From Niameybacter massiliensis (GTDB lineage Bacteria; Bacillota; Clostridia; Lachnospirales; Cellulosilyticaceae), in NCBI RefSeq assembly GCF_001282685.1, contig NZ_LN875035.1, positions 2,652,001 through 2,716,000 of the forward strand: a stretch of DNA of 64,000 nt, in the 5' to 3' direction. The position numbers and the translations under genes are program-made. Below, piece after piece: positions 44,176 to 60,986 of the stretch. Within the stretch, counting starts at the first letter, position 1. Each line of letters starts with the position of its first letter. The notes under the pieces were generated by a model. That model worked only from the letters and a program-made list of their open reading frames with translations, was not told where the DNA came from and made no database searches.

Positions 44176-44229
44176 AAAATAATAGTTTTATTTCCATCAA
44201 ATTGTATGTTAGAATTAAAAAAATAGCAA

Positions 44230-44325
44230 AAACCTGGGGAGCTCGTATGCGGGCTGAGAGGAAGTCATCAACTTCGACCCTTTAACCTGATTTGGATAAT
44301 GCCAACGTAGGGAATACAAGGTGAG
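44230..44325 (+). promoter_or_regulatory. TPP riboswitch (THI element)
   Basis: Conserved blocks GGGGAGCTC, GGGCTGAGAGGA, GACCCTTTAACCTGATTTGG and ATAATGCCAACGTAGGGAA are in the right order. A terminator follows, so thiamine pyrophosphate should shut off the thi operon by early termination. Confidence 0.97.
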
Positions 44326-44340
44326 TATAGAATATACAAC

Positions 44341-47078: not shown

Positions 47079-47703
47079 ATGTCTCACACTCTACGCCGTT
47101 ACAGATCGTAGTTGGCTAAATGGTCAAACACTTCTTTCACAAGTAGAACAAGCCCTAAAGGGTGGCGTAACTATGGTGCAACTTCGTGAGAAAACTTTAT
47201 CCCAAGATGCATTTTTAGCTGAGGCACGTCTTATGCGTAAACTCACTCGTAAATATAATGTCCCACTCATTATTAATGATAATATTGAAGTCGCCTTACT
47301 AAGTGAGGCTGACGGCGTACATATTGGTCAAAAAGATTGTAGCATCCAAGAAGCTCGTAAGTATCTTGGCATAGATAAAATTATAGGTGTAACAGCCAAA
47401 ACACCCAAGCAAGCTCGCCTTGCTACCGAAGCTGGTGCTACTTACCTTGGCTCTGGTGCTGTCTTCGGAAGTGGTACTAAGTTAGATGCTACGCCTTTAA
47501 GCTACAAGGCATTACAAGAAATTTGTCATTCAACTTCTTTACCTGTTGTAGCTATCGGTGGCATCACAGATGAAAATATTCTAAAACTTAAAGGTAGTGA
47601 TATTGCAGGTGCTGCCGTTGTTTCTGGCCTTTTTAAACAACCAGATATTTATCAATCTGCAAGACATCTTAAAGAACTTATAGAAAAGGAGATTGTCCGA
47701 TGA
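47062..47703 (+). CDS. thiE: Thiamine-phosphate synthase ThiE
   Basis: 213 residues, TIM barrel. VTMVQLREKTLS, PLIINDNIEVALLSEADGVH, GVTAKTPKQARLATEAGATY and PVVAIGGITDENI are conserved. Joins HMP-PP and thiazole phosphate into thiamine phosphate. Its stop overlaps the thiD start as ATGA. Confidence 0.97.
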   Translation: MKFTPKCLTLYAVTDRSWLNGQTLLSQVEQALKGGVTMVQLREKTLSQDAFLAEARLMRKLTRKYNVPLIINDNIEVALLSEADGVHIGQKDCSIQEARKYLGIDKIIGVTAKTPKQARLATEAGATYLGSGAVFGSGTKLDATPLSYKALQEICHSTSLPVVAIGGITDENILKLKGSDIAGAAVVSGLFKQPDIYQSARHLKELIEKEIVR

Positions 47704-48485
47704 AAACAGTACTGACAATTGCAGGCTCTGATTGTAGTGGTGGTGCAGGTATACAGGCAGATTTAAAAACGATGACTGCTCATAAAGTTTATGGTATGAG
47801 TGCGATTACAGCACTTACTGCTCAAAACACTCAAGGTGTAAGTGGCATTATGTCTGTATCTCCTGAGTTTCTAACTGAACAACTTAAACGTATCTTCGAA
47901 GATATTCCTCCTGTTGCAGTCAAAATTGGAATGATTGGTGATGCTTGCCTTACATATGCTATTGTAGATATTTTAAAAAAATATAAACCTGCCTATATCG
48001 TAGTAGACCCTGTTATGGTTGCTACAAGTGGTGCAACTCTAAGTTCAAATGAAACAAGAGATGCTATGCTACATCATCTACTTCCCCTTGCAACCCTTAT
48101 TACACCTAACTTATATGAACTTGCTAATCTTACTGAAACAACTACTATTAGAGATAAAGAAACCATGCTGGAAATTGCACGTACTTTAGCTCATCAAACA
48201 GGTACACATGTTCTTGCAAAAGGAGGTCACCTCACAGAAACTGCAAGTGACCTCCTCTATCTAGCAGATGATACTTTTACATGGTTCGATGGCAAACGCT
48301 ATCAATCTACTAATACACACGGTACAGGATGTACCCTTTCCTCCGCTATTGCTTCTAACTTAGCACTTGGCTATAGCCTTTCAGATAGTGTTAAGTTAGG
48401 CAAAGAATATGTAGCTGGTGCTATTGCAGATGGACTTAGCTTAGGACATGGTAATGGACCTTTAAACCACTGCTATCGACTGTAA
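47700..48485 (+). CDS. thiD: HMP/HMP-phosphate kinase ThiD
   Basis: 261 residues, ribokinase fold. TIAGSDCSGGAGIQADLKTM, AVKIGMIGD, VDPVMVATSG and the catalytic NTHGTGCTLSSAIASNLALG are intact. It makes HMP-PP for ThiE. Last gene of the thi operon. No terminator is seen between it and the large RNA that starts ~12 bases later. Confidence 0.97.
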   Translation: MKTVLTIAGSDCSGGAGIQADLKTMTAHKVYGMSAITALTAQNTQGVSGIMSVSPEFLTEQLKRIFEDIPPVAVKIGMIGDACLTYAIVDILKKYKPAYIVVDPVMVATSGATLSSNETRDAMLHHLLPLATLITPNLYELANLTETTTIRDKETMLEIARTLAHQTGTHVLAKGGHLTETASDLLYLADDTFTWFDGKRYQSTNTHGTGCTLSSAIASNLALGYSLSDSVKLGKEYVAGAIADGLSLGHGNGPLNHCYRL

Positions 48486-48496
48486 GTAATGAAGAC

Positions 48497-49139
48497 AAAT
48501 AAATATTGGTTAAGTGTGAGGGGGGTGCTTATATTTAGTCTACTTACATGAGTTGGCTAGGTAGATTCTCCTTCACTTTGTGGACTGCACCGGCGGAGAG
48601 ATTACTAAACTGCATGTAGCTTATATTCTAAGTCCATCCTCGAAAAAAGCTACATGGATGTCACCCACGCATCACCGCCCTTTTCTACTCAGAGAAGTAA
48701 GTTTTCACTTCCAGTGACACAACGCGTGGAACAAAAAAGAGGAAACATATCTTCATTAGAGAGAATACTTCCAAGTGCTTGATAATACTCCTTCGTAGTT
48801 TACTCTTTATCTCAACTTAGGAATAATTAGGCACTTTCATATGAAGGATGTTTAGAAAATAGATCATGTAGTTTAGCAACCGCTTTACCGGAAGCGTCTA
48901 TGATGTGATGGGCTGTAAGGTAAGTTATTGTATGGAAACTTTTCCGCAGGCTTTTTAGAGAGGTTTAGCGAATGGAATCAAACTGGTTTTAGAAAAATGT
49001 TTGAAGAAAAGTGAACTTCTTTTCTGAGTTTTGACCGTTAGTTTGATGGAATGAACTTAGCCTGTCTTAAAAGTCGAGGACTAGAAGTTGGAATACAATA
49101 AGCTTGCCTACATGCTTCACACTTAACCAAATATTTATT
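48497..49139 (+). ncRNA. Large structured RNA of ~640 nt (OLE/ROOL-size class)
   Basis: This gap has no ORF but many helices. The ends pair: 48498-48519 with 49117-49139 over 22 bp with one bulged base. Inner helices include 48613-48622/48647-48656 (10 bp), 48665-48670/48724-48729, 48592-48596/48675-48679 (crossing the previous one, a possible pseudoknot), 48773-48780/48829-48836, 48881-48885/48892-48896 and 48977-48984/49040-49047. G-U pairs hold on the plus strand only, fixing the orientation. A terminator follows. Known RNAs of this size in Firmicutes are OLE (~600 nt) and ROOL (~580 nt); I cannot decide between them or exclude a new class. No own promoter is clear, so it may be cut from the thi transcript. 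Confidence 0.75.
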
Positions 49140-49150
49140 CTATTCATTAT

Positions 49151-49180
49151 AAAAGGGCACTTCTATAGAAGCGCCCTTTT
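49151..49180. terminator. Bidirectional terminator
   Basis: AAAAGGGC/GCCCTTTT stem (49151-49158 with 49173-49180), T-rich on both sides, ends the large RNA on the plus strand and the rubrerythrin gene on the minus strand. Confidence 0.85.
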
Positions 49181-49188
49181 ATTTAAAT

Positions 49189-60477: not shown

Positions 60478-60715
60478 AAAAAACTCACCTCTATTTCAGA
60501 GGCGAGTTATCGCGGTTCCACTCTGATTAAAGCTCTTCTTCTATATAGAAAAGCTCTATCTTAATTGCCTTAACGCGGCCTCTACGACCTATGCTACTCT
60601 TATTCACATAGATAGCTCCAGAATGCACTTCATTCAATTTCTTAGAACTCACTTCCAGCCTATGGCGAGTCTCTCTTGGCTAATCCATTAAATTACTCTT
60701 TCTTTCATTGCTTAT
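60478..60715 (-). promoter_or_regulatory. T-box riboswitch (tRNA-Cys) of cysE-cysS
   Basis: On the minus strand the T-box sequence TGGAACCGCG (complement of 60511-60520) precedes a terminator (AACTCGCCTCTG pairing with AGAGGTGAGTT, 60482-60508) ending in TTTTTTT. A Stem I specifier candidate TGC in GAAGTGCATTC fits Cys. The remaining 60716-60986 is A+T-rich spacer with no further feature seen. Confidence 0.92.
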
Positions 60716-60986
60716 TTCTCTATTCCATCTAAAATTGCACATTATTCCTTATTATAATCTATTAGTCACGTAGTTTCAACTGCTATCTTTATTTATTATA
60801 TTAGACGATACGATTTATGTGCTTATTTTTCTATTCAAATATGTGTATTAGAATTATATTTAGTATGCTCAAAATATACTTAACTAACTTGTCTTTTTTC
60901 TTCTTTTGTAATTGGATACTCCTATATTTTGTCCATACTATTTATCTATTCTATCGACATCTATAAGAATTATCTTAAATTCATAT

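Follow-up and report, generated by a model that had tools for sequence, protein, structure and literature searches.

A deleted copy of a dispersed hairpin-pair repeat, probably REPIN/BIME-like mobile DNA, behind the thi operon of Niameybacter massiliensis

The window analysed here is a stretch of 64,000 nucleotides from contig NZ_LN875035.1 of Niameybacter massiliensis (GCF_001282685.1; positions 2,652,001 to 2,716,000, forward strand). It contains a thi operon with a TPP riboswitch at its head, and the element described below starts 12 nt past thiD, the final gene of this operon. A terminator-like hairpin follows the element directly, and a converging rubrerythrin gene lies beyond it. The features, in coordinates of the window and with the basis of each assignment in brackets, are listed here; R1 is the covariance model of the hairpin family.

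44225-44330, plus strand: TPP riboswitch upstream of thiC (Rfam search of the window)
47700..48485, plus strand: thiD, the gene 5' of the element (PF08543, E 1.7e-90)
48498..49139, plus strand: repeat element, deleted copy, 642 nt (own-genome BLAST, alignment and boundary analysis)
48498..48519, plus strand: 5' end arm AATAAATATTGGTTAAGTGTGA, partner of the 3' end arm (sequence, fold, 5' ends of other complete copies)
48520..48576, minus strand: what is left of the 5' hairpin, namely its outer left arm (BLAST pieces; R1 minus-strand matches in other copies)
48577..48903, no strand given: middle domain, varying among copies (BLAST and alignment of copies)
48904..49121, plus strand: 3' hairpin, intact, arms of ~110 nt, 218 nt in total (arm alignment; core common to 23 aligned copies)
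48947..49082, plus strand: core of the 3' hairpin matching R1 (CTTAG/CTTAG duplex, TTTTAG, tip of TGTTTGA, stem and GAGTT)
49117..49139, plus strand: 3' end arm TCACACTTAACCAAATATTTATT, less variable in the family than the 5' end (copy search of the genome)
49149..49182, plus strand: terminator-like hairpin directly 3' of the element and outside it (sequence; self-complementary, matched on both strands)
60495-60717, minus strand: T-box leader (Rfam search of the window)

A preliminary description of this DNA had proposed a large, structured, non-coding stretch of about 640 nt with 22 bp of complementary ends, and these basic properties were confirmed. No ORF of 60 aa or longer overlaps 48498-49139, and the end arms (48498-48519 and 49117-49139) form 22 pairs with one 1-nt bulge. 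The fold of 48490-49145 had a free energy of -202 kcal/mol (z -8.9), which was equalled by 0 of 20 shuffled sequences. The Rfam 15 search gave no match in the element at the gathering score, and no intron, RNase P or tmRNA was found among the 13 weak matches obtained at E up to 5.

The element was then compared with the genome from which it comes (4.57 Mb, 11 contigs). BLAST detected 57 pieces, which together with their flanks represent 29 places, some of them mere fragments. Both ends are present in 18 copies of 332-956 bp, and two pairs of complete copies at separate sites are nearly identical (98.2% over 956 and 99.2% over 753). The full plan runs from the end AATAAATATTT through a 5' hairpin of ~260 nt, a variable middle and the 3' hairpin to the end AAATATTTATT. 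The 5' hairpin occurs in two versions, A and B, which are unlike in sequence and stand on the same 3' hairpin and ends (own copies L009-L027); this is module exchange. The 3' end arm has 19 genomic copies within 3 mismatches, not counting three other matches that are 5' end arms, and the reversed control gave none. The window element is almost certainly a copy of a dispersed repeat that belongs to the hairpin family characterized below.

The copy in the window is of type A, and as compared with the 956-nt copies it lacks two stretches, 314 nt together. The first, ~196 nt of the 5' hairpin, is lost at the junction 48568-48576, where the BLAST query pieces 6-87 and 79-330 overlap by 9 nt in the window copy but are separated by 187 nt in the full copy C11:1180982-1181940. 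The second, ~118 nt of the middle, is lost at the junction 48801-48819, and only the 3' hairpin is retained intact. Its arm alignment contains 73 Watson-Crick pairs, 6 GU, 2 AC and 20 other mismatches, and a 7-bp stem replaces the GCGNAGC tip found elsewhere in the family. The idea of a ~640-nt RNA as the full unit has therefore to be given up, since this is a deleted copy of units that reach 956 bp. That a large RNA outside the catalogued families lies here holds for its structure and for the absence of an Rfam family, but not for a single RNA gene, given 29 dispersed places. The proposal that G-U pairs fix the plus strand also fails for the element as a whole: a full copy folds alike on both strands (-329 versus -322 kcal/mol), and its unbiased arm alignment gives GU 12 : AC 14. 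The polarity resides in each hairpin.

For the distribution of the family, the tip of the 5' hairpin on the minus strand, TGTTTGAGCGTAGCGAGTT, was used as a probe. Its complement with at most one mismatch was found in 8 of the 146 order genomes, and the exact pattern TGTYTGAGCGNAGCGAGTT in 19 of the 245 genomes sampled from the class Clostridia and in 13 of the 299 sampled from the phylum, where each count includes the own genome and the samples overlap; the reversed controls gave 0 in all three. Across the genomes of the class, the tip TGTYTGA-GCGNAGC-GAGTT is set on quite unlike stems. Long imperfect hairpins surround it, and in the relatives of the window the same loop letters recur, namely CTTAG opposite CTTAG, TTTTAG, TGTTTGA and GAGTT. 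Many genomes have several copies. The genome G198, for example, has 12 exact tip matches, and the 9 copies fetched from it have in common a 167-nt unit whose ends are sharp and whose flanks are mostly unrelated, while the repeated unit of G371 is ~290 nt long. Some tip matches are located at contig ends, as expected since repeats break assemblies. The ends and the middle of the element are not conserved between genera. The hairpin family spans Clostridia and neighbouring classes, with the GCGNAGC tip as a rule on covarying stems.

A distant-mode search of plasmids and phages with the window element gave no match. A pattern of the core sequence hit one stretch in genome contigs and two in viral contigs, which were taken as chance. 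The tip pattern occurred in 87 stretches of viral contigs, several of which are near-identical phage loci with both neighbours in common; viral loci were excluded from the polarity tests of 38 hairpins and from the siting counts, and were kept among the 133 hairpins of the neighbour survey described below. An Rfam search of 15 further sources, most of them with family hairpins, detected only a PreQ1 riboswitch (L016 5222-5266, minus strand), away from the hairpins. No description of the motif letters or of large Clostridia hairpin repeats was found in open-licence full texts. The family may be among the candidate structured RNAs that PMC8040213 lists for human microbiomes. In one locus (L124, G371 contig 66), a hairpin is interrupted by ~135 nt, and ~15 nt of its sequence stand on either side of the break, which resembles the insertion of another small element with duplication.

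The preliminary description had advised building a new covariance model if Rfam gave no match. The model R1 was made from 14 training hairpins, mainly of relatives; the own genome contributed two, one solitary and the other a type-A 5' hairpin, and 3' hairpins of the type seen in the window were absent from the set. It nevertheless matched 48947-49082 on the plus strand with 46.7 bits (E 7.7e-5 when searched over the whole genome and 1.4e-8 over the local stretch), and it provides a means to annotate the hairpin family. The own genome has at least 51 R1 hairpins and is one of the 9 family genomes, out of 24, with R1 matches; the counts per genome are lower bounds, with at most ~150 candidates scored in each. 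In other copies of the element, intact 5' hairpins match R1 on the minus strand and the 3' hairpin on the plus strand. This (-,+) arrangement was seen in 18 of 18 pairs at the fetched loci of the own genome, one with a weak partner (E 0.0079). For pairs within 1.1 kb among the matches listed in other genomes, 20 were (-,+), three were on the same strand and none was (+,-); 15 of these 20 come from G002 and possibly go back to one shared ancestor. Genomes outside the class Clostridia, G416 and G652, also contain (-,+) pairs. Solitary hairpins exist besides the pairs.

Base-pair covariation was examined in an alignment, A2, of 14 hairpins with 29 pairs in four helices. From a source set of 36 hairpins, it takes 13 of the 17 order-level ones and one more; L051, L052, L075 and L095 were too different or interrupted, and the other 19, from other Clostridia, stayed outside. 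The proportion of paired cells was 87.3% versus 68.9% in shuffled alignments, the cells with double changes numbered 75 versus 23.8, the pairs with a double change 19 versus 12.9, and the covariation score was 0.490 versus 0.166, with 0 of 500 shuffles reaching any of these values; the structure was obtained by RNAalifold on the same alignment and hence leans towards itself. The number of further pair types was reached by 2 of 500 shuffles. Slid controls gave at most 50.1% paired cells, a score of at most 0.175 and at most 26 double-change cells. The A2 hairpins thus have the covarying base pairs expected of a functional RNA.

The two strands of a hairpin are not equivalent. The tip strand folded better than its complement in 14 of 14 hairpins of A2 and in 34 of 38 distinct hairpins, and it was still better in 33 of 38 when the tip was swapped for a neutral loop. 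In an unbiased arm alignment without the tip, GU pairs outnumbered AC pairs by 68 to 30, with GU leading in 22 hairpins and AC in five. Because the tip strand folds better and GU exceeds AC, each hairpin tends to function as one particular folded strand. Covariation and polarity are equally compatible with RNA and with single-stranded DNA. The GCGNAGC tip, which we take to be the known extra-stable DNA mini-hairpin, gives a hint towards DNA. For single-stranded DNA, rather than RNA, as the working form of the hairpin, the chance appears to be even.

The siting of the copies was determined with ORFs of 90 aa or longer for 28 of the 29 own places (L031 was omitted). Twelve copies lie in convergent gaps, 16 in tandem gaps (8 sense and 8 antisense) and none in a divergent gap, as compared with 13 convergent, 69 tandem and 13 divergent among 95 ordinary gaps of at least 40 bp in the own-genome stretches. 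Of 94 hairpins at further loci, a few of them own, 24 lay in convergent, 31 in tandem (16 versus 15, no sense bias) and 4 in divergent gaps; another 22 stood at a locus edge, and 13 fell inside an ORF, a class that depends on crude ORF calling at 90 aa or longer. The copies sit at gene 3' ends in either orientation. When the flanks were read by eye, several copies were found directly after, not before, a terminator-like hairpin. By eye, the strands of the own BLAST pieces and the GC skew showed no bias of orientation with respect to replication.

The element is not tied to the thi operon: the window copy is one of 29 own places, and hairpins were present at 2 of 16 thiD loci of the family within the stretches examined, namely the window's and that of G002. 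In G002, a hairpin pair (L279 2411-2862) lies in a thiE-thiD gap of 658 nt. In the same genus, this gap is 26 nt in G019 (L278), the two genes overlap in G016 (L281), and in G009 and G023 an ORF stands beside thiD at 133 nt and 11 nt, respectively. The window copy after thiD and the G002 pair between thiE and thiD occupy different operon places in two genera, and therefore they are not one inherited insertion. The element is likely to be a non-autonomous mobile DNA. For the 18 complete copies, no consistent target-site duplication was found at offsets of -4 to +5 and lengths of 2-10, apart from isolated flank duplications, e.g. 6 nt in one copy. Direct repeats between the own flanks were not in excess (permutation p 0.33), and no palindromic target was detected (inverted flanks, p 0.78).

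A mobilising enzyme was sought by comparing 24 of the 25 tip-match genomes (G283, 61% complete, was omitted) with 44 of 226 genomes of the class that are tip-negative in the sense of having no exact tip match. IS200-type (Y1) transposases were found in 17 of 24 hairpin-bearing and in 30 of 44 tip-negative genomes, showing no association, and G198 had no Y1 match despite its 12 exact tip matches. The own genome encodes a single Y1 protein of 297 aa; its locus is among the 18 Y1 loci chosen, none of which has a hairpin beside it. A RAYT as the mobilising enzyme is thus unsupported. Within 1.2 kb of the 133 hairpins, phage sets aside, no neighbour protein recurred at more than 3 loci.

Among known systems, the closest in working is that of the REPINs and BIMEs. 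The basic unit of a REPIN is described in PMC6006769 as two hairpins in inverted orientation, extragenic and in many copies; the REP sequences that compose it measure 21-65 nt, have GTAG/GTGG at the foot and go with a cognate tyrosine transposase. According to PMC3733652, such repeats sit mostly between convergent and unidirectional genes. The present element is likewise an extragenic, multi-copy, non-autonomous doublet of inverted hairpins (18 of 18 own pairs, and 20 of 23 elsewhere among the matches listed), depleted from divergent gaps (0 of 28 own copies). Its GCGNAGC tip also resembles the GCGAAGC-like tips of some enterobacterial REPs, for which Table 1 of PMC2817692 gives GCGaaGCGC or GCGgAGCGC (GCGAAGC-like in the Citrobacter row). 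The differences are equally clear. The hairpins here are ~165-290 nt long with conserved internal loops (~167 nt in G198, ~290 nt in G371, 218 nt for the 3' hairpin of the window), in units of up to 956 bp. The foot was tested in the own genome and in G198, because feet elsewhere are insufficiently sharp; GTAG/GTGG was found within 6 nt outside either end in 0 of 18 own complete copies, and within 6 nt 5' of the foot in 0 of 9 G198 units. At none of the 18 chosen Y1 loci does the family hairpin flank a cognate RAYT (TnpAREP) gene. Because of the size, the foot and the missing cognate RAYT, the element was not filed as a REPIN/BIME member.

Two other groups of repeats have some likeness. CGTC-tagged palindromic repeats are extragenic and reported in PMC3733652 without a dedicated transposase, but they are short REPs of 20-40 bp. 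The stem-loop families of a genome survey, Bcr1 of B. anthracis, Clop-1 of C. perfringens and Clot-1 of C. tetani (PMC2267715), are foldable intergenic repeats with listed model sizes of 167, 93 and 74, respectively, and the hairpin family may be identical to Clop-1 or Clot-1.

Taken together, the window element is probably a deleted copy of a dispersed, non-coding, non-autonomous REPIN/BIME-like mobile DNA that is recognised as a folded single strand. We infer the single-strand mechanism, by analogy with REPINs, from the polarity of the hairpins, their arrangement in inverted pairs and the absence of a target duplication. The element would spread as single-stranded DNA, in which the unpaired strand would fold into polar hairpins; an enzyme acting in trans might recognise the hairpin tip and internal loops, and the unit would be copied to another extragenic site without target duplication. 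The inverted pair would ensure one correctly folded hairpin whichever strand is single. The absence of a replication-strand bias by eye counts against this mechanism, because lagging-strand transposition predicts such a bias. We suggest only tentatively an undescribed mobile system, in which an enzyme that is neither IS200-type nor a reverse transcriptase reads a ~120-nt covarying single-stranded hairpin by its internal loops and GNA tip, and spreads (-,+) pairs in Clostridia.

The most serious competitor is that the hairpins are functional RNAs, in 3'-UTRs or stand-alone, binding protein or protecting mRNA, which were copied because they are useful, with the inverted pair serving two convergent genes. 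The strong covariation, the conserved internal loops and the excess of GU over AC would all suit an RNA, and so would the siting at gene 3' ends with enrichment in convergent gaps and the place of the window copy between the thiD stop and the terminator-like hairpin. However, neither the own tandem copies nor those at other loci are biased to the sense strand, several copies follow a terminator-like hairpin directly, and no Rfam relative reaches the gathering score. We consider this explanation rather doubtful. An ordinary TIR MITE, in which a cut-and-paste (DDE) transposase reads the short AT-rich ends and the hairpins are passengers, is less probable still. The element does end in terminal inverted repeats, and these complementary ends are conserved in the complete copies, but the 18 copies and their flanks lack the consistent duplication that such transposition leaves. 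Moreover, the ends are not the conserved part: the full copy gave only tip matches of 38-45 bp, in 2 of 58 other genomes, and none of 8 further own hairpin loci, one of which is a fragment counted before, had the 3' end around it. All 19 copies of the 3' end sit at known places, and no additional, possibly autonomous element sharing this end was found among them.

A retroposed RNA served by a reverse transcriptase in trans would agree with polarity and covariation through an RNA intermediate, but RVT_1 does not track the hairpins (10 of 24 hairpin-bearing versus 29 of 44 tip-negative genomes) and had no match in the own genome (98% complete) despite two copy pairs 98-99% identical, so that this hypothesis is unsupported and very improbable. 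OLE (RF01071), ROOL or another catalogued large RNA, an identity raised in the preliminary description, can be practically dismissed: we take OLE and ROOL to be alike to the element in length range and complementary ends, and the likeness stops at these two features, as the element is a dispersed repeat without a covariance-model match at the gathering score, and neither RNA appears among the weak matches nearby at E up to 5.

Most of what is known of REP and REPIN sequences concerns short repeats linked to a single transposase, and the hairpins of the REPIN/BIME-like element described here are several times larger. Clostridia-wide covarying hairpins with fixed internal loops, arranged in (-,+) pairs and with no visible partner gene, suggest another route of multiplication for bacterial non-coding DNA, and their strand polarity yields a testable claim on a folded single-strand intermediate. 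For annotation, 'ornate RNAs' inferred from single windows may be copies of dispersed repeats.

Two observations on individual genomes are added. Of the 47 R1 hairpins (31 loci) in contig 1 of G002 (4.71 Mb, dnaA at 352), the 46 listed are all placed within 0.18-0.74 Mb or 3.19-4.49 Mb, and no listed hairpin is located in 0.745-3.185 Mb, the half far from the origin, for which the random chance is ~1.5e-10 with the interval picked post hoc. Confinement near the origin as a general rule was dropped; the own copies reach 0.94 Mb on contig 11, where the skew is uniformly negative. In G078 (L062 3808-5981), two very long hairpins in the (-,+) arrangement stand ~1 kb apart and enclose most of a 371-aa ORF.
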